Positions 14,412 to 27,730 of a DNA stretch of 54,020 nt are shown here, one piece after another. The stretch is from Chromobacterium piscinae. GTDB lineage: Bacteria > Pseudomonadota > Gammaproteobacteria > Burkholderiales > Chromobacteriaceae. The stretch spans positions 1 to 54,020 of the forward strand of contig NZ_JAJOHV010000021.1 of the NCBI RefSeq assembly GCF_021129175.1, in the 5' to 3' direction. Made by a program: the position numbers and the translations under genes. The notes beneath the pieces were generated by a model. It ran no database searches, was not told where the DNA came from, and saw nothing but the letters and a program-made list of their open reading frames with translations. The first letter of the stretch is position 1, and each line of letters opens with the position of its first letter.

Positions 14412-15944
14412 CTAGTGCGCGCCGCTGTCGCCGCCGGATGCAGTGAACGGCGGCTTGGCGAACCATACCAGGCCGATCAGCAGGACGAACAGGATGCCGC
14501 AGAACCAGAAGATCTCGTTGGCCGCCATGATGTAGCCCTGCTTGGTGATCTGCAGCTGGGTCAGCGCCTGCTGTTGGCTGGGTCCCAGGCCGAGCTTGCC
14601 CATGGTATCGAACCACGACACCGAAGCCGGATCGTACTGCGTCACATGCTCGGTCAGCTTGGAGTGGTGCTGCGCCTCGCGGCGATCCCACATCGTCGTC
14701 GTGATCGAGGTGCCGATGCTGCCGGCCAGAATCCGCAGGAAGTTGGACAGGCTGGACGCGCTGGCGATCCGCGACGGATGCAGGCCGGACAGCGTGATCG
14801 TCGTCAGCGGCATGAAGAAGCAAGCCACGCCTATGCCTTGCACCACCTGTGGCCACACCACGTAGGAGAAGTCCATGTCGGTGTTGAAGGTGCTGCGCCA
14901 GAAGAAGCAGATGGCATACACGCTGAAGCTTACGGTGACGATCCAGCGCATGTCCCAACGGTGGGCGTTCTTGCCGATGATGGGCGACAGCACTACCGGG
15001 ATCAGGCCGATCGGCGCGGCGGCGAGGCCGGCCCAGGTGGCGGTGTAGCCCAGCTGGGTTTGCAGCATCAGTGGCAGCAGCACCACGGCGCCGAAGTACA
15101 GCATGAAGCCCAGGCTGATGGCGACGGTGCCGACGGTGAAGTTGCGCTGGCTGAACAGCGACAGGTCGACGATGGGGTGTTCCTCGCCCAGTTCCCAGAT
15201 CACTAGGTAGGTCAGCGCCAGGAAGGCGATCACGGCCAGGGTGAGAATTTCGGCGGAGTTGAACCAGTCCAGCTCCTTGCCGCGGTCCAGCACCATCTGC
15301 AGCGAACCGACTCCGATTACCAGCAAGGCCAGGCCGAGCTTGTCGATGGGCAGCTCGAAGGTGTCGGTTTCGCGGCTCTTCAGGATGCGCCAGGAGATGA
15401 AGGCGGCGGCGAGCCCCACCGGCACGTTGATGAAGAAAATCCAGCCCCAGTGCCAGTTGTCGCTGATCACGCCGCCCAGAATCGGGCCGAACACCGGCGC
15501 GACGATCACTGTCATCGCCCATAGCGCCAGCGCCATGCTCTTCTTGGCTGGTGGGTAGCATGACATCAGCAAGCTCTGCGACAGTGGAATCATCGGACCG
15601 GCCACCGCGCCTTGCAGCACGCGGAAGAAAATCAGCATTTCCAGGCTGCCTGACATGCCGCACAGCCAGGAGGTCAGCACGAACAGCAGCGTGGACGCGG
15701 TGAACAGCTTCACCTCGCCGAAGCGTTTTGCCAGCCAGCCGGTCAGCGGCACGGCGATGGCGTTGGCGACGCCGAACGAGGTGATCACCCAGGTGCCCTG
15801 GCTGGTCGCGGCGCCGAGGTTGCCCGAGATGGTGGGCAGCGCCACGTTGGCGATGGTGGTGTCCAGCACTTGCATGAACACAGACATCGACAGCGCCAGC
15901 GTGATCCAAACCAGTTTCGAGCCGCTCAGTGGCGGATGGTTCAT
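14412..15944 (-). CDS. emrB: EmrB-like MFS drug efflux permease (DHA2, 14 TM)
   Basis: The product has 510 residues with 14 predicted membrane segments. It carries the DHA2-family signature LDTTIANVALPTI in helix 1, GWLAKRFGEVKLF in loop 2-3 and the helix 5 motif GPILGGVI. EmrB-type pumps use the proton gradient to push hydrophobic drugs into the periplasmic adaptor. It is the last gene of marR-OMF-emrA-emrB, 12 bases after emrA, so the whole tripartite pump is encoded together. Confidence 0.92.
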   Translation of the reverse strand: MNHPPLSGSKLVWITLALSMSVFMQVLDTTIANVALPTISGNLGAATSQGTWVITSFGVANAIAVPLTGWLAKRFGEVKLFTASTLLFVLTSWLCGMSGSLEMLIFFRVLQGAVAGPMIPLSQSLLMSCYPPAKKSMALALWAMTVIVAPVFGPILGGVISDNWHWGWIFFINVPVGLAAAFISWRILKSRETDTFELPIDKLGLALLVIGVGSLQMVLDRGKELDWFNSAEILTLAVIAFLALTYLVIWELGEEHPIVDLSLFSQRNFTVGTVAISLGFMLYFGAVVLLPLMLQTQLGYTATWAGLAAAPIGLIPVVLSPIIGKNAHRWDMRWIVTVSFSVYAICFFWRSTFNTDMDFSYVVWPQVVQGIGVACFFMPLTTITLSGLHPSRIASASSLSNFLRILAGSIGTSITTTMWDRREAQHHSKLTEHVTQYDPASVSWFDTMGKLGLGPSQQQALTQLQITKQGYIMAANEIFWFCGILFVLLIGLVWFAKPPFTASGGDSGAH

Positions 15945-15956
15945 GGGTGGGCGTCC

Positions 15957-17105
15957 TTACTTGCCGGCGTTGGCGGCCAGGATTTCGGCGACCAGCTTGT
16001 CGGCCTGTTTCAGGTCCGGCAGGGTGCCGTTGTGCTCGCTGACCACGGTCGCCGGGGCGGCTTCGGCCAGCGACTTGCCGTCCTGGTTGCTAGTGTCCAC
16101 CACCGCGTCGATAGACAGGCCGACGCGCAGCGGGTGCTCCTGCAGATCCTTGGGGTCGAGCGCGATGCGAACCGGCACGCGTTGCACCACCTTGATCCAG
16201 TTGCCGGTGGCGTTTTGCGCCGGCAGCAACGAGAAGGCGCTGCCGGTGCCGGCGGACAGGCCCTGCACTTTGCCGTGGTAGACCACCTTGCCGCCGTACA
16301 GGTCTGACTTCAGTTCCACCGGCTGGCCGATGCGGATTTTGGCCAGCTGGCCTTCCTTGAAGTTGGCGTCCACCCACAGGTGCTCCAGCGGCACCACGGC
16401 CATCATCGGCGTGCCGGCGGCGACGCGCTGGCCCACCTGCACGTTGCGGCGGGCGACGGTGCCGTTCACCGGAGACTTGATCTCGGTGCGCTGCAGCGCG
16501 AGCCAGGCTTCCTTCAGGCGGCTGGCGGCGGCTTTGACCGCCGGCTGGTGCGCGAGCTCGTCCTTGCCTACCAGCGCCAGGCCGGCCTTGGCCTGCTCCT
16601 GGGCCGCGGCTAGCGCGGCCTGGGCGGCGGCGGCGGCGTCGCTTGCGTGCCCCAGTTCCTCCGCGGACATCGCCTCGCTGCCGGCCAGCTGCTTGCGGCG
16701 CTTCAGGTCGGATTCGGCGCGGGACAGCTCGGCTTGGCGCAGCGCCACCTGGGCGTCAAGCTGCTGGCTGTTGGCCATCAGTTGGCGGGTCTGGCGCACG
16801 GTTTGGGCGAATTCGTTGCGGGCGCGTTCGAAAGCCAGTTGGGCATCGCTGTTGTCGTAGCTGACCAGCACCTGGCCGGCCTTCACCGCCACGGTATCGT
16901 CAACCAGGATCTTGGCGACGGTGCCGCCCACTTCCGGGGTGACCTGCACCAGGTGGCCGCCGACATAGGCGTCGTCGGTGTCTTCCTGGTGGCTCAGCAC
17001 CAACGACCAGTAAGCGCCGTAGCCGATGGCGATGGCGGCGAACAGGGTGGTGGCCACCAGCAGGTTGCGTTTGCGGCTCTTCGCGGTTTCCAGTTTCTGA
17101 TCCAT
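15957..17105 (-). CDS. emrA: EmrA-like membrane fusion protein
   Basis: The product has 382 residues. One N-terminal membrane helix (about 14-34) precedes a HlyD-type adaptor: a beta-barrel/lipoyl half near 45-80 (DTDDAYVGGHLVQVTPEVGG, abbreviated), a long alpha-helical hairpin at about 85-205 and the second lipoyl half with IKSPVNGTVARRNVQVG. The adaptor bridges EmrB and the outer membrane factor. It is encoded between the two, with gaps of 12 and 13 bases. Confidence 0.93.
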   Translation of the reverse strand: MDQKLETAKSRKRNLLVATTLFAAIAIGYGAYWSLVLSHQEDTDDAYVGGHLVQVTPEVGGTVAKILVDDTVAVKAGQVLVSYDNSDAQLAFERARNEFAQTVRQTRQLMANSQQLDAQVALRQAELSRAESDLKRRKQLAGSEAMSAEELGHASDAAAAAQAALAAAQEQAKAGLALVGKDELAHQPAVKAAASRLKEAWLALQRTEIKSPVNGTVARRNVQVGQRVAAGTPMMAVVPLEHLWVDANFKEGQLAKIRIGQPVELKSDLYGGKVVYHGKVQGLSAGTGSAFSLLPAQNATGNWIKVVQRVPVRIALDPKDLQEHPLRVGLSIDAVVDTSNQDGKSLAEAAPATVVSEHNGTLPDLKQADKLVAEILAANAGK

Positions 17106-17118
17106 TTGATGTGTGTCC

Positions 17119-18549
17119 TTAGCGGGTGGCGGTCTGGTTGTCGAAACCGCCGCCCAATGCGGTGTTCAGGGTGGCCCAGGCCAGGCGGCTGGCGGCCTTG
17201 GCGTCGATGTTGGAGGATTGCTGGCTCAGCAGCGCATCCTGGGAGTCCAGCAGCGACAGTTTGTTGATCAGGCCGGCGCGCAGGCGGGAGGCCATCGATT
17301 CATTGGCTTTGCGGCTGCTTTGCAGCGCGCGTTCGGTCTGCCGCAGCTGGCGCTGGCTGTTCTGCCAGCCGGACACCGCGTCGGCGGCGTCGCGGAGCGC
17401 GTCGAACACCGCCTGGTTGTATTGCTGCACCGCCATGTCGTATCCCGCCTGTTGTTTGGACAGGTTGGACTGCAGCTGGCCGGAGTGGAAGATCGGCAGG
17501 CTGATGGCCGGCATGAAGCCCCACAGCGACGATTCGCTCTTCCACAGCTGGTCCATTTGCAGCGAGCTCTGGCCGGCGAACACGGTCAGCTTGACGTTGG
17601 GGTAGAACTCGGCGCGCGCTTCCTTGACCGAAGCGGACATCGATTCGACGCGGGCGCGCTGGGCGGCGATGTCGGGACGGCGGCCCAGCAGGTTGGCGTC
17701 CAGCTTGTCCAGCGCCGGTTCCGGCGCGGCGTCCAGCAGGCCGGGATTCAGGCCGTCCTGCTGTTGCGGCGCCTGGCCGGTCAGCGCGGCCAGCGCGTGG
17801 CGGCTGCGGGCGATGTCGTTGTCCAGCGCGCTCTGCTGCTGCTGCAGGCGCTCGATCGACACTTCGTTGCCGCGCTGGTTGTCGCCTGGCAGCAGGCCGG
17901 CGTTGATGCGGGCCTGGGTCAGCTTCTGGCGGCTCTGGGCGATGGCCAGGCGCTGGGACAGCAGCTTGGATTGGGCCAGGCCGCGTTGCAGCTGGGTGTA
18001 TTGGGCGACGACGGCCTGGGTCAGCAGCAGTCGGGTCTGCTGGCCTTCGTAGGCGATGGCCTGCTGTTGGCCGAGCGCGGCGCTGACGGCGGAGTGGTTC
18101 TTGCCCCAGAAGTCGAATTCCCAGCTGCCCATCAGCGCCGCGGTGTAGGCGTTGATGTAGTCCTTGTCATTGTGCGGGATGGCCTTGAGCGGGTCGGCGT
18201 GGATCTGCACGGCGTTGGCCAGCGCGTCCAGCTGCGGGCCGTCCTTGCTTTCCACGATGCCGACGGCGGCGCGCGCCTGGCGCAGGCGCGCGTCGGCCAG
18301 CTTCAGCGACGGCGAATCTTTCAGCGTCGCCTCCACCAGGCGGTCGAGCTCGGAGTCGTTCAATTGGCGCCACCAATCGGCGCGGATGTTCTGCTGGCCG
18401 GCGACGGCCAGCTTGAGCTGGTCGGCGCCCACCATCTGGTCGGGGGCGGCGTCTGGGCCGAAGCTGGCGCAGCCGCTCAGCACGGCGCTGATCAGCAACA
18501 CCCCGGCGGCTTGTGGCCAGGATTTCTTGTTCACCTTGTCGGTCTCCAT
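17119..18549 (-). CDS. Outer membrane efflux lipoprotein, NodT/OprM family
   Basis: The product has 476 residues from the ATG at 18549; a GTG at 18534, preceded by GGAG, is an equally good start. Both give a lipoprotein signal with lipobox LSGC, so the mature protein starts at Cys and is anchored in the outer membrane. The rest is the duplicated alpha-barrel repeat of TolC-like factors, with WWRQLNDSELDRLV near the start and GRRPDIAAQRARVE in the middle. It provides the exit duct for the EmrAB pump encoded just downstream. Confidence 0.93.
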   Translation of the reverse strand: METDKVNKKSWPQAAGVLLISAVLSGCASFGPDAAPDQMVGADQLKLAVAGQQNIRADWWRQLNDSELDRLVEATLKDSPSLKLADARLRQARAAVGIVESKDGPQLDALANAVQIHADPLKAIPHNDKDYINAYTAALMGSWEFDFWGKNHSAVSAALGQQQAIAYEGQQTRLLLTQAVVAQYTQLQRGLAQSKLLSQRLAIAQSRQKLTQARINAGLLPGDNQRGNEVSIERLQQQQSALDNDIARSRHALAALTGQAPQQQDGLNPGLLDAAPEPALDKLDANLLGRRPDIAAQRARVESMSASVKEARAEFYPNVKLTVFAGQSSLQMDQLWKSESSLWGFMPAISLPIFHSGQLQSNLSKQQAGYDMAVQQYNQAVFDALRDAADAVSGWQNSQRQLRQTERALQSSRKANESMASRLRAGLINKLSLLDSQDALLSQQSSNIDAKAASRLAWATLNTALGGGFDNQTATR

Positions 18550-18588
18550 CAATGATGCGTGTCGGTCCGGGGCTGATTAATCCAGTAG

Positions 18589-18608
18589 ATAATCACCCAA
18601 GTTATTAT
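18589..18608. promoter_or_regulatory. Possible second MarR-type operator before the outer membrane factor gene
   Basis: ATAAT (18589-18593) and ATTAT (18604-18608) form an inverted repeat with 10 bases between, in the 79-base gap between marR and the next gene. The CAAG followed by TTATTAT resembles the palindrome upstream of marR. This is suggestive only. Confidence 0.3.
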
Positions 18609-18628
18609 GTGAGCGAAAAAGCGCGGGC

Positions 18629-19129
18629 TCAGCCGCCGAGCTTGCTCAGCAGCTTGCGCATCAGCCGTTCCAGTTCGGCTTTCTCATCGGCGTCGAAGTC
18701 CGTCCACAGCGAGCGATGGATTTCGCGCGAGTAGGGCAGCAGGCCTTCCACCAGCGCCACGCCGGCGGGGGTCAGCTCCAGGACGATCTTGCGTCTGTCC
18801 TCGGCGCTGGCCGAGCGGGCGGCCCAGCCGTTCTTCACCAGCTCGTCCGCGATGCGGGTGGCGTTGGTGCGCGAGGAATCCAGCGTTTCGCTGATATCCG
18901 ATGGATTCAGCATCTGGTTCGGACAGGCGTACAAGGCCAGCAGCGCCATCCACACCGTCTCGTTCAGGCCATGTTGCCTCAGGGACTCGCATAGATGGGA
19001 GGTCAGCCGCGGCACGATGTGGAAGATCAGACGGGTCAGGATCACTTCCTGGCGGGGCACGCCGGGGAAGCGAGCCTCGACGCGGTTGATCGCTTGCTCC
19101 AACTGGGAAAAGGACTTGTTTGGACTCAT
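18629..19129 (-). CDS. MarR-family repressor, EmrR-like
   Basis: The product has 166 residues. A central winged helix-turn-helix covers about 60-120 (NPSDISETLDSSRTNATRIADEL, abbreviated) and ends with the wing SAEDRRKIVLELT. The long N- and C-terminal helices form the dimer interface typical of EmrR/MprA. It is first in an operon with the tripartite pump, the arrangement of emrR-emrAB, so it most likely represses its own operon and is released by pump substrates. An AT-rich palindrome lies 24 bases before the start. Confidence 0.93.
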   Translation of the reverse strand: MSPNKSFSQLEQAINRVEARFPGVPRQEVILTRLIFHIVPRLTSHLCESLRQHGLNETVWMALLALYACPNQMLNPSDISETLDSSRTNATRIADELVKNGWAARSASAEDRRKIVLELTPAGVALVEGLLPYSREIHRSLWTDFDADEKAELERLMRKLLSKLGG

Positions 19130-19656: not shown

Positions 19657-19786
19657 GTGGCTTCTCCCTTATCGTTGATCCGGGCTGCTGCGGCATGATG
19701 GGCAGCATAACCCGCTGCAGGTGGGTTGGGAAGGGGGCGCGCATCGTGGCATGAAAGCGCCAGCCTGCCAAGTTTCCCGACTGGGT

Positions 19787-19815
19787 TTGGCAAGTGCGGC
19801 ATCAACCGTTAACAT
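19787..19815 (+). promoter_or_regulatory. Candidate sigma70 promoter for the Bcr/CflA gene
   Basis: TTGGCA (19787-19792) and TAACAT (19810-19815) are separated by 17 bases and lie 28 bases before the start codon. They match the consensus at five and four of six positions. Confidence 0.35.
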
Positions 19816-19842
19816 TCGAACATTATCCGAGATTCTTACGTC

Positions 19843-21051
19843 ATGTCCCGCACTTCCCGCACTCACTTCGGCTTGGCCGTGCTGCTGGCTGGCTTGTCCA
19901 CCCTGGGCCCGTTTTCCATCGACACCTTCCTGCCGGCCATGCGGGCCATCGGTTCTTCGCTGTCCGCGTCGCCGCTGGAGATGCAGCAGGCGCTGACGGT
20001 CTATCTGTTCTGCTACGCGTTGATGATGCTGTGGCATGGCTCGATTTCCGACGCGGTTGGCCGTCGGCCGGTGATCCTGGCGACCACGCTGTTGTTCGGC
20101 CTGGCTTCGGTCGGCTGCGCGATGTCGGATACCCTGGGCTCGTTGTTGCTGTTCCGCGCGCTGCAGGGGCTGTGCGGCGGCGCCGGCCTGGTGGTCGGTC
20201 GAGCCATCATCCGCGACCGGCTGGAGGGCGCGGCGGCACAGCGGCTGATGTCGCAGGTGACCATGCTGTTTTCCTTGTCCCCGGCGATCGCGCCGGTGGT
20301 GGGCGGTTGGCTGTTCGGCGCTTTCGGCTGGCATTCCATTTTCGCGTTCATGGCGCTGATCGGCTTCGCGCTGTTCGCGCTGTGCTGGTTCGGCCTGCCG
20401 GAGACCCATCCGAAGGCGGCGCGGCAGCCCTTGCATCCGCGCCCGCTGCTAGCCAGTTATTGGAGAGTGGGGCGCACGATCAATTTCCAGTTGCTGACCG
20501 CGGCGGTGTCGTTCAATTTCGCCGGTTTTTTCCTGTACGTGCCTTCGGCGCCGGTGTTCCTGATGCAGCATTTGCATCTGGGGCCGTCTGAGTTCCTGTG
20601 GCTGTTCGGGCCCGCGGTGTCGGGGATCATGTTCGGCGCTTACCTGTCGGGGCGTATGGCCGGGCATTTCTCGTCGCGGGAGGTGGTGACGCGCGCCTAC
20701 TGGCTGATGTTTGCCGCGGCGCTGGCCAATCTAGGGTACAACCTGCTGGCTCCCGAACAGACGCTGCCGTGGGCGGTGCTGCCGCTGGCGTTGTACACCA
20801 CGGGCATGTCGCTGGCCGCGCCATCGATCACGCTGAACCTGATGGATCAGTTTCCGGAGTTACGCGGGACCGCATCGTCGCTGCAGGGCTTCTGCCAGAC
20901 CATGGTATCCAGCTTAGTGGCCGGCGTGGTCGCGCCGCTAGCCTGGGCCAGCCCCTTGAGGCTGGCCCTGGTGATGAATCTGTTGCTGGTATTGGGCTTC
21001 ATCTGCCGGATGGGATACCGGCGGCGGATTCAGGCCGCGGAGAGGGCGTGA
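19843..21051 (+). CDS. Bcr/CflA-family MFS drug exporter
   Basis: The product has 402 residues with 12 predicted membrane segments. It shows the DHA1/Bcr signature STLGPFSIDTFLPAM in helix 1, GSISDAVGRRPVIL in loop 2-3 and the helix 5 motif SPAIAPVVGGWL. Relatives export bicyclomycin, chloramphenicol or other small molecules by proton antiport. It is a single gene, convergent with the Wzz-like gene 27 bases away; no clear terminator lies between them. Confidence 0.88.
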   Translation: MSRTSRTHFGLAVLLAGLSTLGPFSIDTFLPAMRAIGSSLSASPLEMQQALTVYLFCYALMMLWHGSISDAVGRRPVILATTLLFGLASVGCAMSDTLGSLLLFRALQGLCGGAGLVVGRAIIRDRLEGAAAQRLMSQVTMLFSLSPAIAPVVGGWLFGAFGWHSIFAFMALIGFALFALCWFGLPETHPKAARQPLHPRPLLASYWRVGRTINFQLLTAAVSFNFAGFFLYVPSAPVFLMQHLHLGPSEFLWLFGPAVSGIMFGAYLSGRMAGHFSSREVVTRAYWLMFAAALANLGYNLLAPEQTLPWAVLPLALYTTGMSLAAPSITLNLMDQFPELRGTASSLQGFCQTMVSSLVAGVVAPLAWASPLRLALVMNLLLVLGFICRMGYRRRIQAAERA

Positions 21052-21078: not shown

Positions 21079-22269
21079 TCAGTGCTCGTTGCGCAGGGCG
21101 AGAGAAGGGGTTGGTTCCAGTCTTTTGAGCGCTTGTTTATCGAAGAGCTTGGCGTGCAGCAAGGAGCTCAAGGCGCCGAACAGAAAGCCTAGCAGAAGCC
21201 CTGCGACCATGATCAGGCTGCGGCTGGGCTTGCTTTTCAGTTCCGGGGGGACGGCGCTATCCAATACCTGGATCAGTGACGAATCCTTGGCTTCGTCTAT
21301 CTTGGCTAGTTCGTATTGCTTGGCCAAGAGTTCGAAAATGGTTTCCTGATATTTAACTTCTCTCAGGCTGCGCAGGTACTCCAGGCCGCTTTGCGCGACT
21401 TTGCCGGTGGGGACCATCAGGTCACCGCGGCCTTCTCTTCCGGTTTCCAGTTTTGTCAGTTGCTCACGCAGCCCGCTTAACTCCTGCTCCGTGCGGATAT
21501 ATAGCGGATTTTGCTGCGTGGCGTAGCTGCGCATCGCCTCCAGTTGAACCTCCTTGGCGGCGATGCTGGCGCGCAGCTGAGTCACTGAGCCGACAATGGC
21601 GGGCAGCTGGCCTTCCGGTTGGATCAGGCCGGTTTTTTCCTGGGTTTGGCGCAAGGCGGTTTCCGCGTTGGTCAATTGCTCTTTGGTTTGCTTCAATTGT
21701 TGCTCGAAAAATAGCCGCCGTTTGGCTGCATCCGTCATGGCTAGAACCTGATTAAGTTGTTTCAATTCGTCGATGTAGGCATTGGCGAGTTGGGCTGCGA
21801 AGTTTGTATCAGTATCATCGACATTGATGTTGATCAGTCCATCTTTGCCGTTGATGATCACTGTTCGGCTTTTTAGGACTCTACGGGTCCCATCCAGAGT
21901 TTCCTGCTGATAACGCTCCTTCAATTGAAAGCGTCTGATCAGGCGATCGGCAACGGTGCGGCTTTGCAGCATGCCAATGTAGAGGTCATTGGGGTTTTTT
22001 AAACTGCTGATTCCTCCGACTCCGGCCATGCCCGCCAGTCCGCCCAATTGTCCCAGCAGGGCGTTCATGCCATTGTTTTGCTGCTGAGGAGGCATGATGG
22101 AGCTAGTGGCGGTAAAGATGGGTTTGGTTAGCAAGCAGTAGGCTAATGCGGCGCTGCCGAACAGTACGGTGCTGATGGCGATCCAACGCTTGTATTTCTG
22201 CAGCGTTGACAGCAGTGCCAGCAGGTCGATTTCATCACTGGCCTGGGGGGTATTAGTCTGGCTCGTCAT
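21079..22269 (-). CDS. Wzz-like polysaccharide chain-length/co-polymerase protein
   Basis: The product has 396 residues from the ATG at 22269, which has GAGGG at good spacing; another ATG lies 6 bases upstream. One membrane helix is at about 30-50 and another near the C-terminus (LIMVAGLLLGFLFGALSSLL, split by eye). Between them is a large periplasmic domain with coiled-coil helices (about 170-260). This is the PCP/Wzz topology. No Walker motifs or tyrosine tail follow, so it is not a BY-kinase fusion. Wzz-like proteins set polymer length and dock to Wza-type exporters. It is the last gene of the export module and starts 30 bases after the Wza-like stop. Confidence 0.85.
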   Translation of the reverse strand: MTSQTNTPQASDEIDLLALLSTLQKYKRWIAISTVLFGSAALAYCLLTKPIFTATSSIMPPQQQNNGMNALLGQLGGLAGMAGVGGISSLKNPNDLYIGMLQSRTVADRLIRRFQLKERYQQETLDGTRRVLKSRTVIINGKDGLININVDDTDTNFAAQLANAYIDELKQLNQVLAMTDAAKRRLFFEQQLKQTKEQLTNAETALRQTQEKTGLIQPEGQLPAIVGSVTQLRASIAAKEVQLEAMRSYATQQNPLYIRTEQELSGLREQLTKLETGREGRGDLMVPTGKVAQSGLEYLRSLREVKYQETIFELLAKQYELAKIDEAKDSSLIQVLDSAVPPELKSKPSRSLIMVAGLLLGFLFGALSSLLHAKLFDKQALKRLEPTPSLALRNEH

Positions 22270-22298
22270 TTTCATTCCCTCATGCTGGATATTTGAAC

Positions 22299-24281
22299 TT
22301 ATTTCAATACCTTTAAGCCGGCAGCGCCAAGGCCAAACTGGTACAGAATGCTTGTCCACTCCTTCAGGGATTGGGTCCAACTACCGGTGTTGAGCTCTTC
22401 TGGAACCACGATGGTGTCGCCCGGATTGACACGTTTGCCGCTGACGCCGGAGAACCAGCCCCCGCTGTCGCTGCTGGCGACAGTTCCGTCGGCGCGCAAT
22501 ACATAAGTGGACGATTTATCGCCGGAGTTTGTCACGCCTCCTGCGAGCGATAGGTAATCGCCGACCGATCGCTGTGAGCGGTAGATGAAGGCATTATTCT
22601 GGTAGACGGCGCCCAGCACGTAGACGGTACCCGGGCGACGGGGGATTTCGATTTGGTCGCCATCCTGCAGTTCCAGATCGGGTAGGTCTTTGGTTTGTGC
22701 GTCTGCGTCTTTCAATTCCAGCACCACGCGGCCTTCCGATTTGATCGCGCGCATTTTTTTCGCAATTTGGCGTTGGCCTTCGACTTCGGCATTGACGGCG
22801 GCGATGGTGTCCTTGTCAGTGAGCTTGGCGAGTTTCATTGATGCGTTTTGTTCCAGCTCTCTTTCAAATCGCGTGGCAACCTCATCCAGCTTTTGTTGCT
22901 GCATTTGGCGTATGCTTTCCCGTTTGAGAATGGTCGCGAAGGTATAGCCGTCTTCATCCACACCGCCCAATCGCATGATCAGCTGGCGCAGCGTTTCGCC
23001 ACGGCGGATCTGGAAGGTTCCGGTTTGTTTGACCTCCCCGCCGACAGTGACGAACTCATCCCCTCTCAGCACGCCAACTGCTTGTGCCCCCGGGACATGT
23101 AGGCGGAAGATGTCTCCCGCGCTGAGGGCGATGGCGCTCAGGCTTTGGGTGGAGTTCTGGTTGCGAACCAAATTGACGAAGCGGTTGTTTACGCTTTTTT
23201 CCAGCAGCAACTCTTTGCCTTCGGCAGCGGACTCCAGGCCACCGGCCCAATGCAGCAGGTCGCCGGCGGTCTCCCCGGGGCGAAATTCGTAGATGGCCGG
23301 TGTCTTGACGTCGCCCAACAGCGCGACGCGCGGACCGGCGGAGGGAATCTGGATCACGTCGCCGTCGCGCAAGGTCTGATCGGTGGACTTGTCGCCGTTC
23401 ACTAGGATGCCGTACAGGTCGACTTTGGACACTGCGCGGCCGCCGCGCAGCAGCGTCACGTTGCGCAGGCTGCCGCTGTCGTCTGGCCCTCCCGCCTTCA
23501 GTACGGCGTTGAATAGGGTGCTCATCGCATTCAGCGTATAGCTGCCTGGCTGGCGCGCATGGCCGACGACATAGACTTGAACCGCCCGACTTTGCAGCAG
23601 GCTGACGCTGAGGTCGAAATTATTGAAGACGCGGCTGACGCTCTTTTTCAACGTCGCCTGAAGATCCTGGTAGCGCAAGCCCGCCACGGCAACGCTGCCT
23701 ACCCGCGGGAGGTAAATCGCGCCGTTGCGATCGACCGTCACGGTTAGATCGATATCCACCATGCCCCAGCCTTTGACCTGCAATTGGTCGCCGCTGCCGA
23801 TCACATAGTCCGGATTGACCTGCACGCCGTCCGGCGCTTCGAAGGCGTTGGCCGGATTGCGGAACAAACGGCTGCCGAATAGCGGCAGTGTCTGTTCCGT
23901 GGCTTTCCGAACATAATCAGTGAACGGAGGAAGCTTGGGTTTGCCGTCGAGAGGGTTGATCACATAGTCATTTTGGTCTAGCAGACGCCAGGATTGGCCG
24001 TTCTGTTGAGGATAGCTGGCTTGCCCATAGCCAGATAGGGATGGTGGGCGGTTGTCGCCGGTTTTCCTATCAGCTGCCTGGTTTGAGCTGGGGAGGCTGT
24101 TTATGGATGGCAGGCTGTTTATGGACGGCAGGCCGTTGGCGTTGTCTGTCTCGTAGTTGGGCATGCTGGGGTTCGGATAGTTGACCGTACCGGATCCGGC
24201 CGCATGGAGGTTGACGCTGCCGCTCAGCAAGCAGAGAGCCAACAGGGTTTTGCCACTCGATTTTAGGAGACGCGCAGTCAT
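22299..24281 (-). CDS. Wza-like polysaccharide export protein with multiple SLBB domains
   Basis: The product has 660 residues, much longer than Wza (379). A signal peptide (cleavage near LHAAGS) is followed by a low-complexity stretch with tandem LPSINS repeats (about 53-68). The Poly_export domain is at about 135-225 (NPDYVIGSGDQLQVKGWG, DRNGAIYLPRVG) and is followed by several SLBB domains up to about 600 (VYVVGHARQPGSYTL, VALLGDVKTPAIYEF, VTVGGEVKQTGTFQI, VYVLGAVYQNNAFIY). Unlike Wza there is no lipobox Cys. A hydrophobic C-terminal segment is present, as in Wza's barrel helix. It probably forms the outer membrane or periplasmic conduit for a polysaccharide, between the YjbH-PAP2 and Wzz-like genes. 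Confidence 0.87.
   Translation of the reverse strand: MTARLLKSSGKTLLALCLLSGSVNLHAAGSGTVNYPNPSMPNYETDNANGLPSINSLPSINSLPSSNQAADRKTGDNRPPSLSGYGQASYPQQNGQSWRLLDQNDYVINPLDGKPKLPPFTDYVRKATEQTLPLFGSRLFRNPANAFEAPDGVQVNPDYVIGSGDQLQVKGWGMVDIDLTVTVDRNGAIYLPRVGSVAVAGLRYQDLQATLKKSVSRVFNNFDLSVSLLQSRAVQVYVVGHARQPGSYTLNAMSTLFNAVLKAGGPDDSGSLRNVTLLRGGRAVSKVDLYGILVNGDKSTDQTLRDGDVIQIPSAGPRVALLGDVKTPAIYEFRPGETAGDLLHWAGGLESAAEGKELLLEKSVNNRFVNLVRNQNSTQSLSAIALSAGDIFRLHVPGAQAVGVLRGDEFVTVGGEVKQTGTFQIRRGETLRQLIMRLGGVDEDGYTFATILKRESIRQMQQQKLDEVATRFERELEQNASMKLAKLTDKDTIAAVNAEVEGQRQIAKKMRAIKSEGRVVLELKDADAQTKDLPDLELQDGDQIEIPRRPGTVYVLGAVYQNNAFIYRSQRSVGDYLSLAGGVTNSGDKSSTYVLRADGTVASSDSGGWFSGVSGKRVNPGDTIVVPEELNTGSWTQSLKEWTSILYQFGLGAAGLKVLK
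24095..24130. repeat. Tandem 18-base repeat inside the Wza-like gene
   Basis: Two copies of an 18-base unit (24095-24112 and 24113-24130) differ at one base, and a degenerate third copy follows. They encode the repeated hexapeptide LPSINS in the linker after the signal peptide. Slippage could change its length without a frameshift. Confidence 0.8.
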
Positions 24282-24305: not shown

Positions 24306-27161
24306 TTATCGGAGGGGAACATCTATTTGCATGCCCAGTTGTTTGGGCGTGGCTATCAGGCTGCTGCGGTATCGGCTGTCATTGCGCTGGGCTTGCCACA
24401 GCCAACTGCCCATCGCGTAGCCAAGCAGGCCGCCTGCCGTGACATCGGACAGCCAGTGATCGCGGCTGGCCATGCGGCCGGCTGCGCCTAGCGCGGCCAC
24501 GCCGTATAGCCAAGGCTGATCGTATTCTTTGGCGAAAGGCGTGACGGATGCGAACAGTACGGCTGAGTGGTTGGAGGTGAAGCTGCTTTGTAGTCTCGAC
24601 TGTCCTGTGTCCTGAGAGCGCCATGTGCTGTCGCCGCCGCTGCCCGGGCGGGCGCGGTTGACCGCCAATTTCAGCATCGAATTGCCGGCAACCGCCGCGA
24701 TGCTGGACTCCAGCGCGATCAAACCGGTGTTGCTCAGCCTGTCGTCGCCCAGCGCGAAGGCCGCTCCTGACAGGGCTGCCGCGGCGATTGGCAAATCCTT
24801 GCCCAGCGTGCCCCAATTGCGTATCAGTCGGTTGCTCTGGTGCCTGTCGAAGAATCGATCCGCTGGTCGATCCAATCCCGTTGCTGCCAGGGTGGCGACG
24901 GACGCGGCCATCAGCGCCGCCGCTTTGTCATCCAGCTCCAGCCAGCGGTTGCCGCTGTCTTCAAGGCGCAGGCGTATCATCGGCCAGGGATGATAGCTAG
25001 GCAGCGGCGGCGTGACCTGAGGCAGGCTTTGCTCGTCGGGCCGTTCCGCGAAGTTTCCAAGTCCGTCGTAGTTGTCGATGTCGCGCTTGGGATCGTTGAG
25101 GATTTCGTAAAGGTCACCCGGCGTCATGACCATTTGGCCGACGTCCCGCGTCCATGGCGACAGGGAGAAATCGCCCGTGGTGCGGCTGTCGAAAGTCAGC
25201 AGGCTGTTGAGTGGAATCGACAGGAACATGCCCTTGTCGTTGTAGGGCTTGGCCGGACTGCCGGGGTTGGTGATGTCATTGCCATTGGTTTTGGTGTACC
25301 AGAACCCGGCTTCGATGCCGGAGCGGAATCGGCGCTTGAGTTCCAGTCGCACGCCATCGTCTTTAGCCAGGAAACGGCCGGCGCGCATGGTCGCCGTGAC
25401 GCCCATCGGTAGTTTGTAATGGAGCGAGGCCAATGCGGTGACGGTCTGGTAGTCGCGTTTGCCAAACCAGCCTTTGACATCGCGTTGCTGCAGCGCATCC
25501 ACCGACAGGTCTACCGCCCAGTTTTTATTGAAGCCAGGGTAATACAGAACCTGGCCGCCTGCGCCGCGAAACATTTCTTCATAAAAACCGGCAGATAGGC
25601 GGGCGTATGTGTCCGGTGACAGGGTCAAGTATTGGTTCAGCAACAGTCGGTTGAGTTTGGGGGATTTGACGCGCTTGTAATCTGCGATGTCTGAGCGGAC
25701 GTGCGGCAGCAGGCTATTGGAAGACTGCCTTACTTCGGTGATGGTGTTGTACAAATCGGCGCTCAGGGCGCTGTCCAAGTACAGCCCCTTGCCCAGGCGG
25801 CGTTTGTACGTGGCCTCGGCCATGATGTCGTAGTGGAACGCGCCGCTGGGGTCATTGAAGTAGACGCCCATTTTGGGGGCGAAATGGAAGCGGTTGTCCT
25901 CGGTGTCGTCGCTGGTGACCTGTATCAGATCGCCTTCCTGATTGGTCAGCAGGTTGACGTTTATGCCTTCGCGAAGTGTTAGCGCCAGAGTCCTGCTGTC
26001 CAGAGGCTTCACTTCCTCATCTCGTCCGGATTTGATGTTGACGGTTTGCAGGAAGCGATCGCGGCTGGCCTTGCCCAGCAGATAGTCATTGAGTGTCGAC
26101 AGGTCGTAGAAGCTGTAAGTGGCGACCGGCTGTTCCAGCTCGGTGTAGACCACTTTGATTTCCCGCGTTTCCAGCGGAGCGAAATACAGCGCGGTGCGCA
26201 CGGCCCGGCCGACTGCTCTGCCGACGTTGGAAATGCGGCTGTTGCCCAGTTCCATGACCAGGTTGTCGCGTTGCATCGCGATGCGGATGTTTTTGAACTC
26301 CTGCTTGCCGAGCGCAGTGGCCAGGGCCCTGGCCCTATCCGGATCGTTTTGCCATTGGCTAAGCGTCGGCCTGCTTGGAAGATCCGGCGCGCCGGTGTAA
26401 TAGGCGGGTTCCTGTATTTTGGGAACAAATTCCTTTAGGTTCAGTGGAATATCTATCTTGGCATTGATGCTGGAGTGGGTCTTTTGCCGTGCTACTTGAA
26501 GCCCAAGCCAACCCCATTGGTATTCCACTCCAATCGCAGGTCCTTTGTCTCTTTGCGCGGTGAATGTTTGTCCGGCGAATGGATCGGCTCGATAGTCGTT
26601 GGCGTCATATTCCGCAACCAGCGACCAATTAGGCAGGATGGACGGTGTGAAACGGATGCCGCCAAAGGCACCTTGAATGCGACCTGTACCCATGCCCAAT
26701 GAGGCTTCTAGTCCTGGCAACACGTTTTTGCTTGCTACCAGGTAGTGTCCTTTCCAGAGCCGGTTTCCCTGGACGTCTGTCGTGCCAAAAGAAATTTCCG
26801 GCAGGAAAGATGACTCTTCCAGCAGTCGGAATTTCAAATCGATGGCCTTATCCTTGTAGCGGCCATAGCCGCTGCCATATTGCGGGTCGGAAAAGCCTGA
26901 CACGCCGGCAATGGATGTGTAGCGGCCTGACACCTCAAGCCAGGGCAGAACTGTGGTCGAGGTCCAGAGAATGCCGTAAGGCTTGTCATAGCCATAGCCA
27001 AGACTGAACGTACCGTCCTCGCCAACTCTGGCTGATGGCATGTTGATATAGCCTATTTGCCCTGTTAGCGATGGCTGGGCAAGCGCGTTGCAGGCGAGGA
27101 AAAACGGCAGTCCTCCCCAAAAAGCCCCCGTAACCAGATAAAACCTGGATTTATTATGCAT
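24306..27161 (-). CDS. YjbH-like outer membrane protein fused to a PAP2 phosphatase domain
   Basis: The product has 951 residues. The signal peptide ends near ALAQPS. Residues about 28-715 are a YjbH/GfcD-type protein (DUF940), with GQIGYINMPSARVGEDGTF near its start; these are predicted outer membrane barrels of exopolysaccharide loci, about 700 residues long in E. coli. Residues about 745-930 are an extra PAP2 domain with a full set of phosphatase motifs: K831-x6-R838-P839, SNH with H865, and R896-x5-H902-x3-D906. It is therefore probably active. It may dephosphorylate a polyprenyl or sugar phosphate in the periplasm, which is an inference. It lies 24 bases before the Wza-like gene in one operon. 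The usual YjbF and YjbG partners are absent. Confidence 0.85.
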   Translation of the reverse strand: MHNKSRFYLVTGAFWGGLPFFLACNALAQPSLTGQIGYINMPSARVGEDGTFSLGYGYDKPYGILWTSTTVLPWLEVSGRYTSIAGVSGFSDPQYGSGYGRYKDKAIDLKFRLLEESSFLPEISFGTTDVQGNRLWKGHYLVASKNVLPGLEASLGMGTGRIQGAFGGIRFTPSILPNWSLVAEYDANDYRADPFAGQTFTAQRDKGPAIGVEYQWGWLGLQVARQKTHSSINAKIDIPLNLKEFVPKIQEPAYYTGAPDLPSRPTLSQWQNDPDRARALATALGKQEFKNIRIAMQRDNLVMELGNSRISNVGRAVGRAVRTALYFAPLETREIKVVYTELEQPVATYSFYDLSTLNDYLLGKASRDRFLQTVNIKSGRDEEVKPLDSRTLALTLREGINVNLLTNQEGDLIQVTSDDTEDNRFHFAPKMGVYFNDPSGAFHYDIMAEATYKRRLGKGLYLDSALSADLYNTITEVRQSSNSLLPHVRSDIADYKRVKSPKLNRLLLNQYLTLSPDTYARLSAGFYEEMFRGAGGQVLYYPGFNKNWAVDLSVDALQQRDVKGWFGKRDYQTVTALASLHYKLPMGVTATMRAGRFLAKDDGVRLELKRRFRSGIEAGFWYTKTNGNDITNPGSPAKPYNDKGMFLSIPLNSLLTFDSRTTGDFSLSPWTRDVGQMVMTPGDLYEILNDPKRDIDNYDGLGNFAERPDEQSLPQVTPPLPSYHPWPMIRLRLEDSGNRWLELDDKAAALMAASVATLAATGLDRPADRFFDRHQSNRLIRNWGTLGKDLPIAAAALSGAAFALGDDRLSNTGLIALESSIAAVAGNSMLKLAVNRARPGSGGDSTWRSQDTGQSRLQSSFTSNHSAVLFASVTPFAKEYDQPWLYGVAALGAAGRMASRDHWLSDVTAGGLLGYAMGSWLWQAQRNDSRYRSSLIATPKQLGMQIDVPLR

Positions 27162-27457: not shown

Positions 27458-27730
27458 TTAGTGGTGGGTTGCTGCCGAGTGGGACGAAGAAGAATTGCTG
27501 TTGCTCGACACAGCGACAGCTGCGGCGACAGCTGCGCCGATGGCCGCGATGGTGCCTACGCTCAGGCCGGCGATGCCGGCAGTGGTACCGGCAGCGCCTG
27601 CGGCGGCGGCGCTGGTAGTGCCTGCAGCCGACGAGCCTGCAGCGGAAGTCGCGGCAGCTTCCTCAGCGGCGAAGGCCGAGGTGGCCAGCATGGAGGCGAG
27701 GGCAAAAATGGCGATTTTTTTCAGCAGCAT
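27458..27730 (-). CDS. Small Ala/Ser-rich exported protein, YjbE/GfcA-like
   Basis: The product has 90 residues with AAAGGA 7 bases before the ATG. Its signal peptide is cleaved near SAFAAEEA. The mature part is almost only Ala, Ser, Thr and Gly, then a hydrophobic stretch (about 53-73), and a Ser/Asn/His tail ending in HH. The E. coli yjbEFGH and gfc loci also begin with a tiny, low-complexity exported protein (YjbE, GfcA) of similar length, so position and composition, not sequence identity, suggest the link. It is first in the export module, behind its own promoter. Its role is unknown. Confidence 0.7.
   Translation of the reverse strand: MLLKKIAIFALASMLATSAFAAEEAAATSAAGSSAAGTTSAAAAGAAGTTAGIAGLSVGTIAAIGAAVAAAVAVSSNSNSSSSHSAATHH

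Follow-up and report, generated by a model that had tools for sequence, protein, structure and literature searches.

The route of lipid-anchored polysaccharides through the outer membrane and the function of GfcD/YjbH proteins are presented as open questions in the available portions of two accounts (PMC8592465, PMC11494523). A gene of Chromobacterium piscinae adds the question of what a phosphatase domain might be doing on such a protein. The gene lies on contig NZ_JAJOHV010000021.1, of which a stretch of 54,020 nucleotides (the window) was analysed; its features are collected in Table 1. A first-pass annotation, made from the letters of the DNA, had described a YjbH-type protein joined to a PAP2 phosphatase, and this description holds. 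The open reading frame begins with ATG and continues through 951 codons without an internal stop, and the protein matches both Pfam families well above their curated cut-offs: YjbH (PF06082) with 536.6 bits (cut-off 24 bits, E 1.5e-160, best stretch residues 164-689) and PAP2 (PF01569) with 59.1 bits (cut-off 27.2 bits, E 4.8e-16, residues 814-927). NCBIfam gave no match to the protein at E 0.1. YjbH occurs a single time in this genome, as two pieces within one frame. A C-terminal extension relative to the E. coli proteins had also been noted and is indeed present; its size, put at about 235 residues, comes closer to 253 when measured against the 698 aa of E. coli GfcD.

Table 1. Features of the YjbH-PAP2 gene and its neighbours (window positions; residue numbers refer to the fusion protein)
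Feature	Position	Strand	Basis or remark
YjbH-PAP2 fusion CDS, 951 aa	24306..27161	-	ORF list and Pfam
Putative Sec signal peptide, residues 1-28	27078..27161	-	Inferred from a by-eye reading of the sequence
N-terminal barrel, 12 predicted strands, residues 51-239	26445..27011	-	AlphaFold2
Middle (M) domain, residues 267-405, limits set by the authors	25947..26363	-	AlphaFold2
C-terminal barrel, 13 predicted strands, residues 424-667	25161..25892	-	AlphaFold2
PAP2 helical domain, residues 746-926	24384..24926	-	Pfam, AlphaFold2, Foldseek
PAP2 motif 1, K831-x6-R838-P839	24645..24671	-	K, R and P invariant in 68/68
PAP2 motif 2, T862-S863-N864-H865	24567..24578	-	S863 in 68/68, H865 in 67/68
PAP2 motif 3, R896-x5-H902-x3-D906	24444..24476	-	R, H and D invariant in 68/68
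OPX polysaccharide export protein, 660 aa (Poly_export and SLBB)	22299..24281	-	Pfam; 24 bases downstream of the fusion
Wzz/PCP chain-length protein (Wzz and GNVR), ATG picked by eye	21079..22275	-	Pfam; follows OPX
Small Ala/Ser-rich ORF, signal-like start, in the GfcA/YjbE place	27458..27730	-	Upstream of the fusion

Two genes joined by a sequencing error or a frameshift could give the same picture, and this is ruled out by conservation. When the own genome was compared with 40 relatives, a full-length fused frame was found in the own genome, in 16 of its 18 congeners and in two more genomes, G021 and G035; among these 41 genomes, the two remaining congeners (G010 and G011) gave no match. 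A scan of named genomes yielded 259 pattern matches that were reduced to 142 relatives, of which 80 were kept, and the PAP2 domain shares a frame with YjbH in 67 of the 80, a proportion biased toward fusions since the patterns were built from the fused alignment A1; the other 13 are unfused. The architecture thus recurs across many genera. The closest kept relative is Chromobacterium vaccinii (90%), and fused proteins were found in Chromobacterium, Pseudogulbenkiania, Vogesella, Crenobacter, Craterilacuibacter, Massilia, Janthinobacterium, Duganella, Telluria, Noviherbaspirillum and Chitinimonas as well as in several metagenome bins.

The association looks different from the side of the barrel and from the side of the phosphatase. 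Among 369 genomes sampled from the class, 28 encode YjbH, and a frame longer than 900 aa exists in the own genome only; the YjbH proteins of the other 27 are unfused, with frames of up to 824 aa. Judged from these sequences and from the 13 unfused loci among the 80, the barrel would commonly work without a PAP2 domain. No PAP2 gene was detected near YjbH in the 13 unfused loci (3.2-22 kb each), and in 28 genomes that have YjbH and lack the fusion the best PAP2 match reached 52.7 bits and none lay near YjbH. Conversely, a profile of the fused PAP2 part (alignment A4) found matches at E ≤0.001 in 82 of 250 genomes of the order, including 23 matches of at least 200 bits in 22 genomes, the own genome among them, and all 23 stand in frame with YjbH-family sequence. 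The next match, of 91.7 bits, lies in a 271-aa frame. Neither the class sample (369 genomes) nor a phylum sample (398 genomes) gave a PAP2 match of at least 160 bits from outside the order. The order, class and phylum scans scored no more than 11 or 7 candidates in each genome, and weak matches may escape them. Plasmid records gave 194 partial matches, none of which reached 80% query coverage. One of the 23 strong matches of the order (L156/L183) is cut by a contig end and displays only the M domain beside PAP2.

AlphaFold2 predicted the full protein with a pLDDT of 78.3 and a pTM of 0.73 from an alignment of 68 rows, as two barrels with the M domain between them, followed by a helical PAP2 domain; in counting the strands of the C-terminal barrel, two short strands at residues 401-418 were assigned to the linker. 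Modelled alone, the PAP2 part reached a pLDDT of 89.3 and a pTM of 0.83. The PAP2 fold does form in the model, and the top Foldseek matches of this part are PAP2 enzymes (B. subtilis PgpB, an acid phosphatase, LpxE and G6PC1) with probabilities of up to 1.00 but a best E of only 1.3e-3; the comparison with BsPgpB (5jki) gave a probability of 1.00, TM-scores of 0.48/0.54 and this same E. The full model retrieved mostly outer-membrane barrels at low TM-scores, with BsPgpB at rank 8. The idea that a hairpin at residues 932-947 completes the second barrel as its 14th strand is unsupported, the pLDDT there being below 50. The PAP2 domain would lie on the periplasmic side of the barrel, and homology together with the OPX and Wzz neighbours points to an outer-membrane location and a role in polysaccharide export. 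Sequence and model lend support to the proposal, made in the first-pass annotation, of a phosphatase domain on a predicted outer-membrane polysaccharide-export protein.

The helices of this domain are weakly hydrophobic. The maximum KD19 value of the PAP2 part is 1.29, compared with 2.37 in E. coli PgpB, which has four segments above 1.6. No segment exceeds this value in 45 of the 68 aligned fusion proteins, and one or two do so in the other 23. The strongly hydrophobic transmembrane helices characteristic of PgpB and LpxE are accordingly missing from the fusion protein. Such weak hydrophobicity would fit a protein that has to pass through the Sec system on its way to the outer membrane, and reduced helix hydrophobicity is argued likewise for the LpxE of Porphyromonas gingivalis in the available part of its description (PMC12704123).

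A PAP2 fold might have been kept for reasons other than catalysis, and the conservation of the motifs bears on this directly. The PAP2 signature is given as KX6RP, PSGH and SRX5HX3D in the accessible text of PMC11784228. The fusion protein departs from it at three residues, P and G in PSGH and S in SR; the remaining ones (K, R, P, S, H, R, H, D) are all present. The motif residues K831, H865, R896, H902 and D906 had been assigned correctly at the outset, as had the change from PSGH to TSNH, to which the replacement of the S of S-R (G895) has to be added. In the 68 aligned fusion proteins (alignment A2), K831, R838, P839, S863, R896, H902 and D906 are invariant, and H865 is replaced once, by Leu (L067). 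Invariant columns number 19 among the 230 of the PAP2 part, and seven of the eight canonical positions are among them (hypergeometric p 6e-8), with a mean column identity of 55% in alignment A4, which comprises 41 of the 68 rows of A2. Since seven of the eight canonical positions are invariant and the fusion recurs across genera, the observed arrangement is not a product of chance. The intervening positions vary: residue 862 is P in 56 proteins, T in 11 and V in one, residue 864 is N in 41 and G in 10, and residue 895 is G in 65 and A in three. The TSNH form of motif 2 is thus a local variant among the fusions. In E. coli YbjG, which carries the annotation undecaprenyl pyrophosphate phosphatase, this motif reads PSDH, and a residue other than Gly therefore need not abolish activity. 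By analogy with PAP2 enzymes in general, we take H902 to be the nucleophile, H865 the acid, and K831, R838 and R896 the phosphate cage.

With respect to the neighbouring genes, 64 fused loci have at least 1.5 kb of downstream sequence, and 37 of these show an OPX gene no more than 1 kb downstream, versus 7 of 11 unfused loci. Because OPX is equally common next to unfused genes, this neighbour speaks for the barrel and not for the PAP2 domain. Three fused genes of other genera sit in polysaccharide clusters, as seen in partial scans of two Massilia loci, where NeuB, epimerases and a glycosyltransferase precede the fusion (L044) or a glycosyltransferase and epimerases lie upstream of it (L034), and of a Janthinobacterium locus (L086) in which the fusion is followed by OPX, Wzz and a Polysacc_synt protein. 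No glycosyltransferase was found among the genes scanned in the window, which make up part of it. The small ORF upstream of the fusion is of low complexity and has no Pfam match; a similar small ORF lies just upstream in ten Chromobacterium loci, a weak indication that it might be a GfcA/YjbE counterpart. The ORF at 19672-20436 was considered as a GfcB-like partner and rejected, as it has no Pfam or NCBIfam match and overlaps the opposite ORF at 19843-21051. The latter, judged by eye, is a putative transporter.

The same PAP2 domain was also found on a second, longer type of protein. Eight frames of 1224-1524 aa, of which the shortest is truncated at a contig end, combine a GfcD-type double barrel with this domain and keep all three PAP2 motifs; in the seven uncut frames, comparison with E. 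coli GfcC revealed a GfcC-like N-terminus. Three of these proteins were examined with Pfam, and YjbH and PAP2 were above cut-off in all three and GfcC_C in two. A YjbH-type M domain precedes PAP2 in 10 of the 11 rows of the long type, three of which are fragments, with 51.5-94.6 bits against the M profile; the extra M domain is absent from one protein (L175). Other matches of this profile in the long proteins scored at most 4.3 bits, and in unfused GfcD-type proteins the M domain reached no more than 23.9 bits (L112). A FastTree phylogeny of YjbH, built without E. coli GfcD, L035 and L075 and without fragments or short search loci, is deeply split in two. The long proteins form a single clade within one of the two parts, a placement that carries a long-branch warning; E. 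coli GfcD scores far higher with that part. The extra M domain could be accounted for if a YjbH-type exporter had donated an M-PAP2 piece to a GfcD-type one, and such a transfer, if it took place, would suggest that M and PAP2 work together. In a first tree of PAP2 domains, which did not include the closest free-standing relatives, ten free-standing domains stood apart from those fused to either type of exporter (94/98). With the closest relatives added, the deep forks of a second tree lost resolution, and the fused domain may have had one origin or come from separate captures. A single clade for the long type was not rejected by the AU test (p 0.407).

The best free-standing PAP2 proteins of the class sample scored 159.6 bits (G066) and 158.1 bits (G212). 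Both genes adjoin a gene similar to the OPX gene of the window, confirmed by Pfam in G066 only, and YjbH was not found in either genome. Since PAP2 genes linked to OPX occur without YjbH, the lateral gate of the barrel is not the only place where the enzyme might act. Surroundings were fetched for five free-standing relatives, of which three lie beside polysaccharide genes, namely these two and G307, where PAP2 adjoins a Bac_transf sugar transferase; the surroundings fetched and scanned for the other two (G249 and G377) contain no polysaccharide genes. Sixteen weaker free-standing PAP2s have no OPX gene within flanks of up to 1.5 kb.

Phosphate removal is probably part of the export of a polymer or of its lipid anchor. 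In the mechanism that we favour, and which we judge about equally apt to be right or wrong, an outer-membrane double barrel of the YjbH/GfcD type would carry a C-terminal PAP2 domain facing the periplasm, which would strip a terminal phosphate from the lipid anchor (a lipid A 1-phosphate or a similar or other lipid phosphate) or alternatively act on the reducing end of the polymer while OPX and PCP hand the polymer over. The chemistry would be the usual phospho-histidine mechanism of PAP2 enzymes. We infer the periplasmic position, the catalysis and the coupling to export, and guess at the substrate, for which lipid A 1-phosphate is a concrete candidate because of P. gingivalis LpxE and of the lipid A-anchored model of GfcD. 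A more elaborate and rather doubtful version would have an M-PAP2 cassette, moved at least once between two deep branches of the GfcD/YjbH barrels, trim the phosphate of the lipid anchor where the lateral gate opens to the periplasm; loss of the phosphate would then permit or power the escape of the anchored polymer into the outer membrane. A conserved enzyme built into an exporter would offer a handle, as its substrate would reveal what the barrel lets through, and mutating one catalytic residue would tell enzyme and pore apart.

Recycling of the polyprenyl carrier, proposed in the first-pass annotation, would make the domain an undecaprenyl-pyrophosphate phosphatase acting during export. PAP2 enzymes such as YbjG are annotated with this activity, YbjG likewise has a residue other than Gly in motif 2, and the fused loci of other genera belong to surface-polysaccharide clusters, whose carrier would presumably be Und-PP. 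A protein with weakly hydrophobic helices that is tethered to an outer-membrane barrel is, however, unlikely to have access to Und-PP in the inner membrane, and the own genome already contains, besides the fusion, two BacA matches and three PAP2 matches, of which one PAP2 match falls below the Pfam cut-off; recycling is left without support, and we consider it improbable. Somewhat better placed, if still distinctly unlikely, is a general periplasmic acid phosphatase of the class A type that scavenges phosphate and was fused to a barrel and kept. The solved proteins closest in sequence to the PAP2 part are in fact class A acid phosphatases (9htz, E 3.8e-6) and not lipid phosphatases, and class A enzymes appear among the Foldseek matches too. 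Against scavenging stand the YjbH/GfcD-family sequence that accompanies every one of the strong members in the order (23 of 23), the presence of the domain on two exporter types, and the polysaccharide genes beside three of the five free-standing relatives with fetched surroundings.

A phosphotransferase that adds phosphate to lipid A or to the polymer has a parallel within the superfamily, E. coli LpxT being annotated as a lipid A-core phosphotransferase (PMC2229476), yet nothing in the sequence points to such an activity and we rate it as very improbable. Lowest of all we place a PAP2 fold that serves for binding or gating without catalysis; the one protein that has lost H865 and the description of the C-terminal end of GfcD as a plug in the accessible text of PMC11494523 would agree with it, but all 68 proteins agree at seven of the eight catalytic positions, against the far lower average identity of the domain.

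Several known systems share parts of this arrangement. As described in the available portions of PMC11494523 and PMC8592465, GfcD/YjbH of E. coli likewise have a double barrel of 12 and 13 strands, a periplasmic middle domain and an OPX gene in the cluster. GfcD-N has 12 strands and GfcD-C 13 with a lateral gate, and the C-terminal end is a plug (PMC11494523, same portions); in contrast to the fusion protein, GfcD stops at this plug and lacks PAP2. P. gingivalis LpxE and 21 similar proteins are reported, in the accessible part of PMC12704123, to combine PAP2 with a predicted beta-barrel part and a predicted outer-membrane location. There, however, PAP2 comes first and is followed by about 200 residues with eight predicted strands, whereas the fusion protein has the reverse order and barrels of 12 and 13 strands; that enzyme is a lipid A 1-phosphatase tied to type IX secretion, and its barrel is not of the polysaccharide-export kind. 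In MapA, a part resembling class A acid phosphatases sits on an outer-membrane barrel, which is an autotransporter beta domain and not a YjbH/GfcD exporter (PMC5424252, available part). YfiM-Griddle operons encode outer-membrane barrels together with lipid-head-group enzymes that include a PAP2 phosphatase, but the link is through the operon and the barrels are of other types, and YjbH is not mentioned in the accessible text of this lipocone survey (PMC12419801).

As for the free enzymes, class A nonspecific acid phosphatases (PhoN, PhoC, 9htz) provide the nearest solved sequences and differ in having been solved without a barrel and in motif 2, PSGH versus TSNH here. An unchanged PSGH signature is usual for that class; its Gly occurs in 10 of the 68 fusion proteins. 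BsPgpB (5jki) and LpxE (6ebu) rank within the top three Foldseek matches for the PAP2 model and differ as transmembrane lipid phosphatases, a contrast for which helix hydrophobicity was measured in E. coli PgpB alone. In the open-licence papers searched, YjbH and PAP2 are mentioned together only in an irrelevant Staphylococcus context, and the matches listed contain no joint account of GfcD and PAP2. The joining of a barrel to a PAP2 enzyme has precedents, and the new combination is that of a YjbH/GfcD exporter with PAP2.

Substitution of the catalytic motif 2 histidine (H865) by leucine was seen in only one of the 68 aligned fused proteins, that of locus L067, which retains the remaining catalytic residues. 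Among the long GfcC-GfcD proteins, those of loci L174, L176-L180 and L185, together with the fragments L182-L184, carry an additional YjbH-type M domain between the barrel and the PAP2 domain; the long protein of L175 is without it. A frame of 1018 aa, similar to YjbH but with extra length, is present at locus L022 (G027:C24), and no match to the fusion-type PAP2 was found within it.

Several PAP2 proteins (L200, L202-L204), whether fused or free, have an aromatic last residue, F, Y or W, preceded by an apparent beta hairpin. Unlike these, the window protein has no aromatic end residue, and its C-terminal hairpin is a low-confidence prediction.

Coordinates of the features in the window
Feature	Position	Content
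C-terminus of the window protein	24306-24365	hairpin (predicted, low confidence)
Efflux genes in a row	14412-19129	MFS pump, HlyD-type adaptor, OEP outer-membrane protein, MprA-like MarR regulator (MprA-like match below the NCBIfam cut-off)

Judged by its gene content, the row of efflux genes is a predicted EmrAB-TolC-like efflux cluster.
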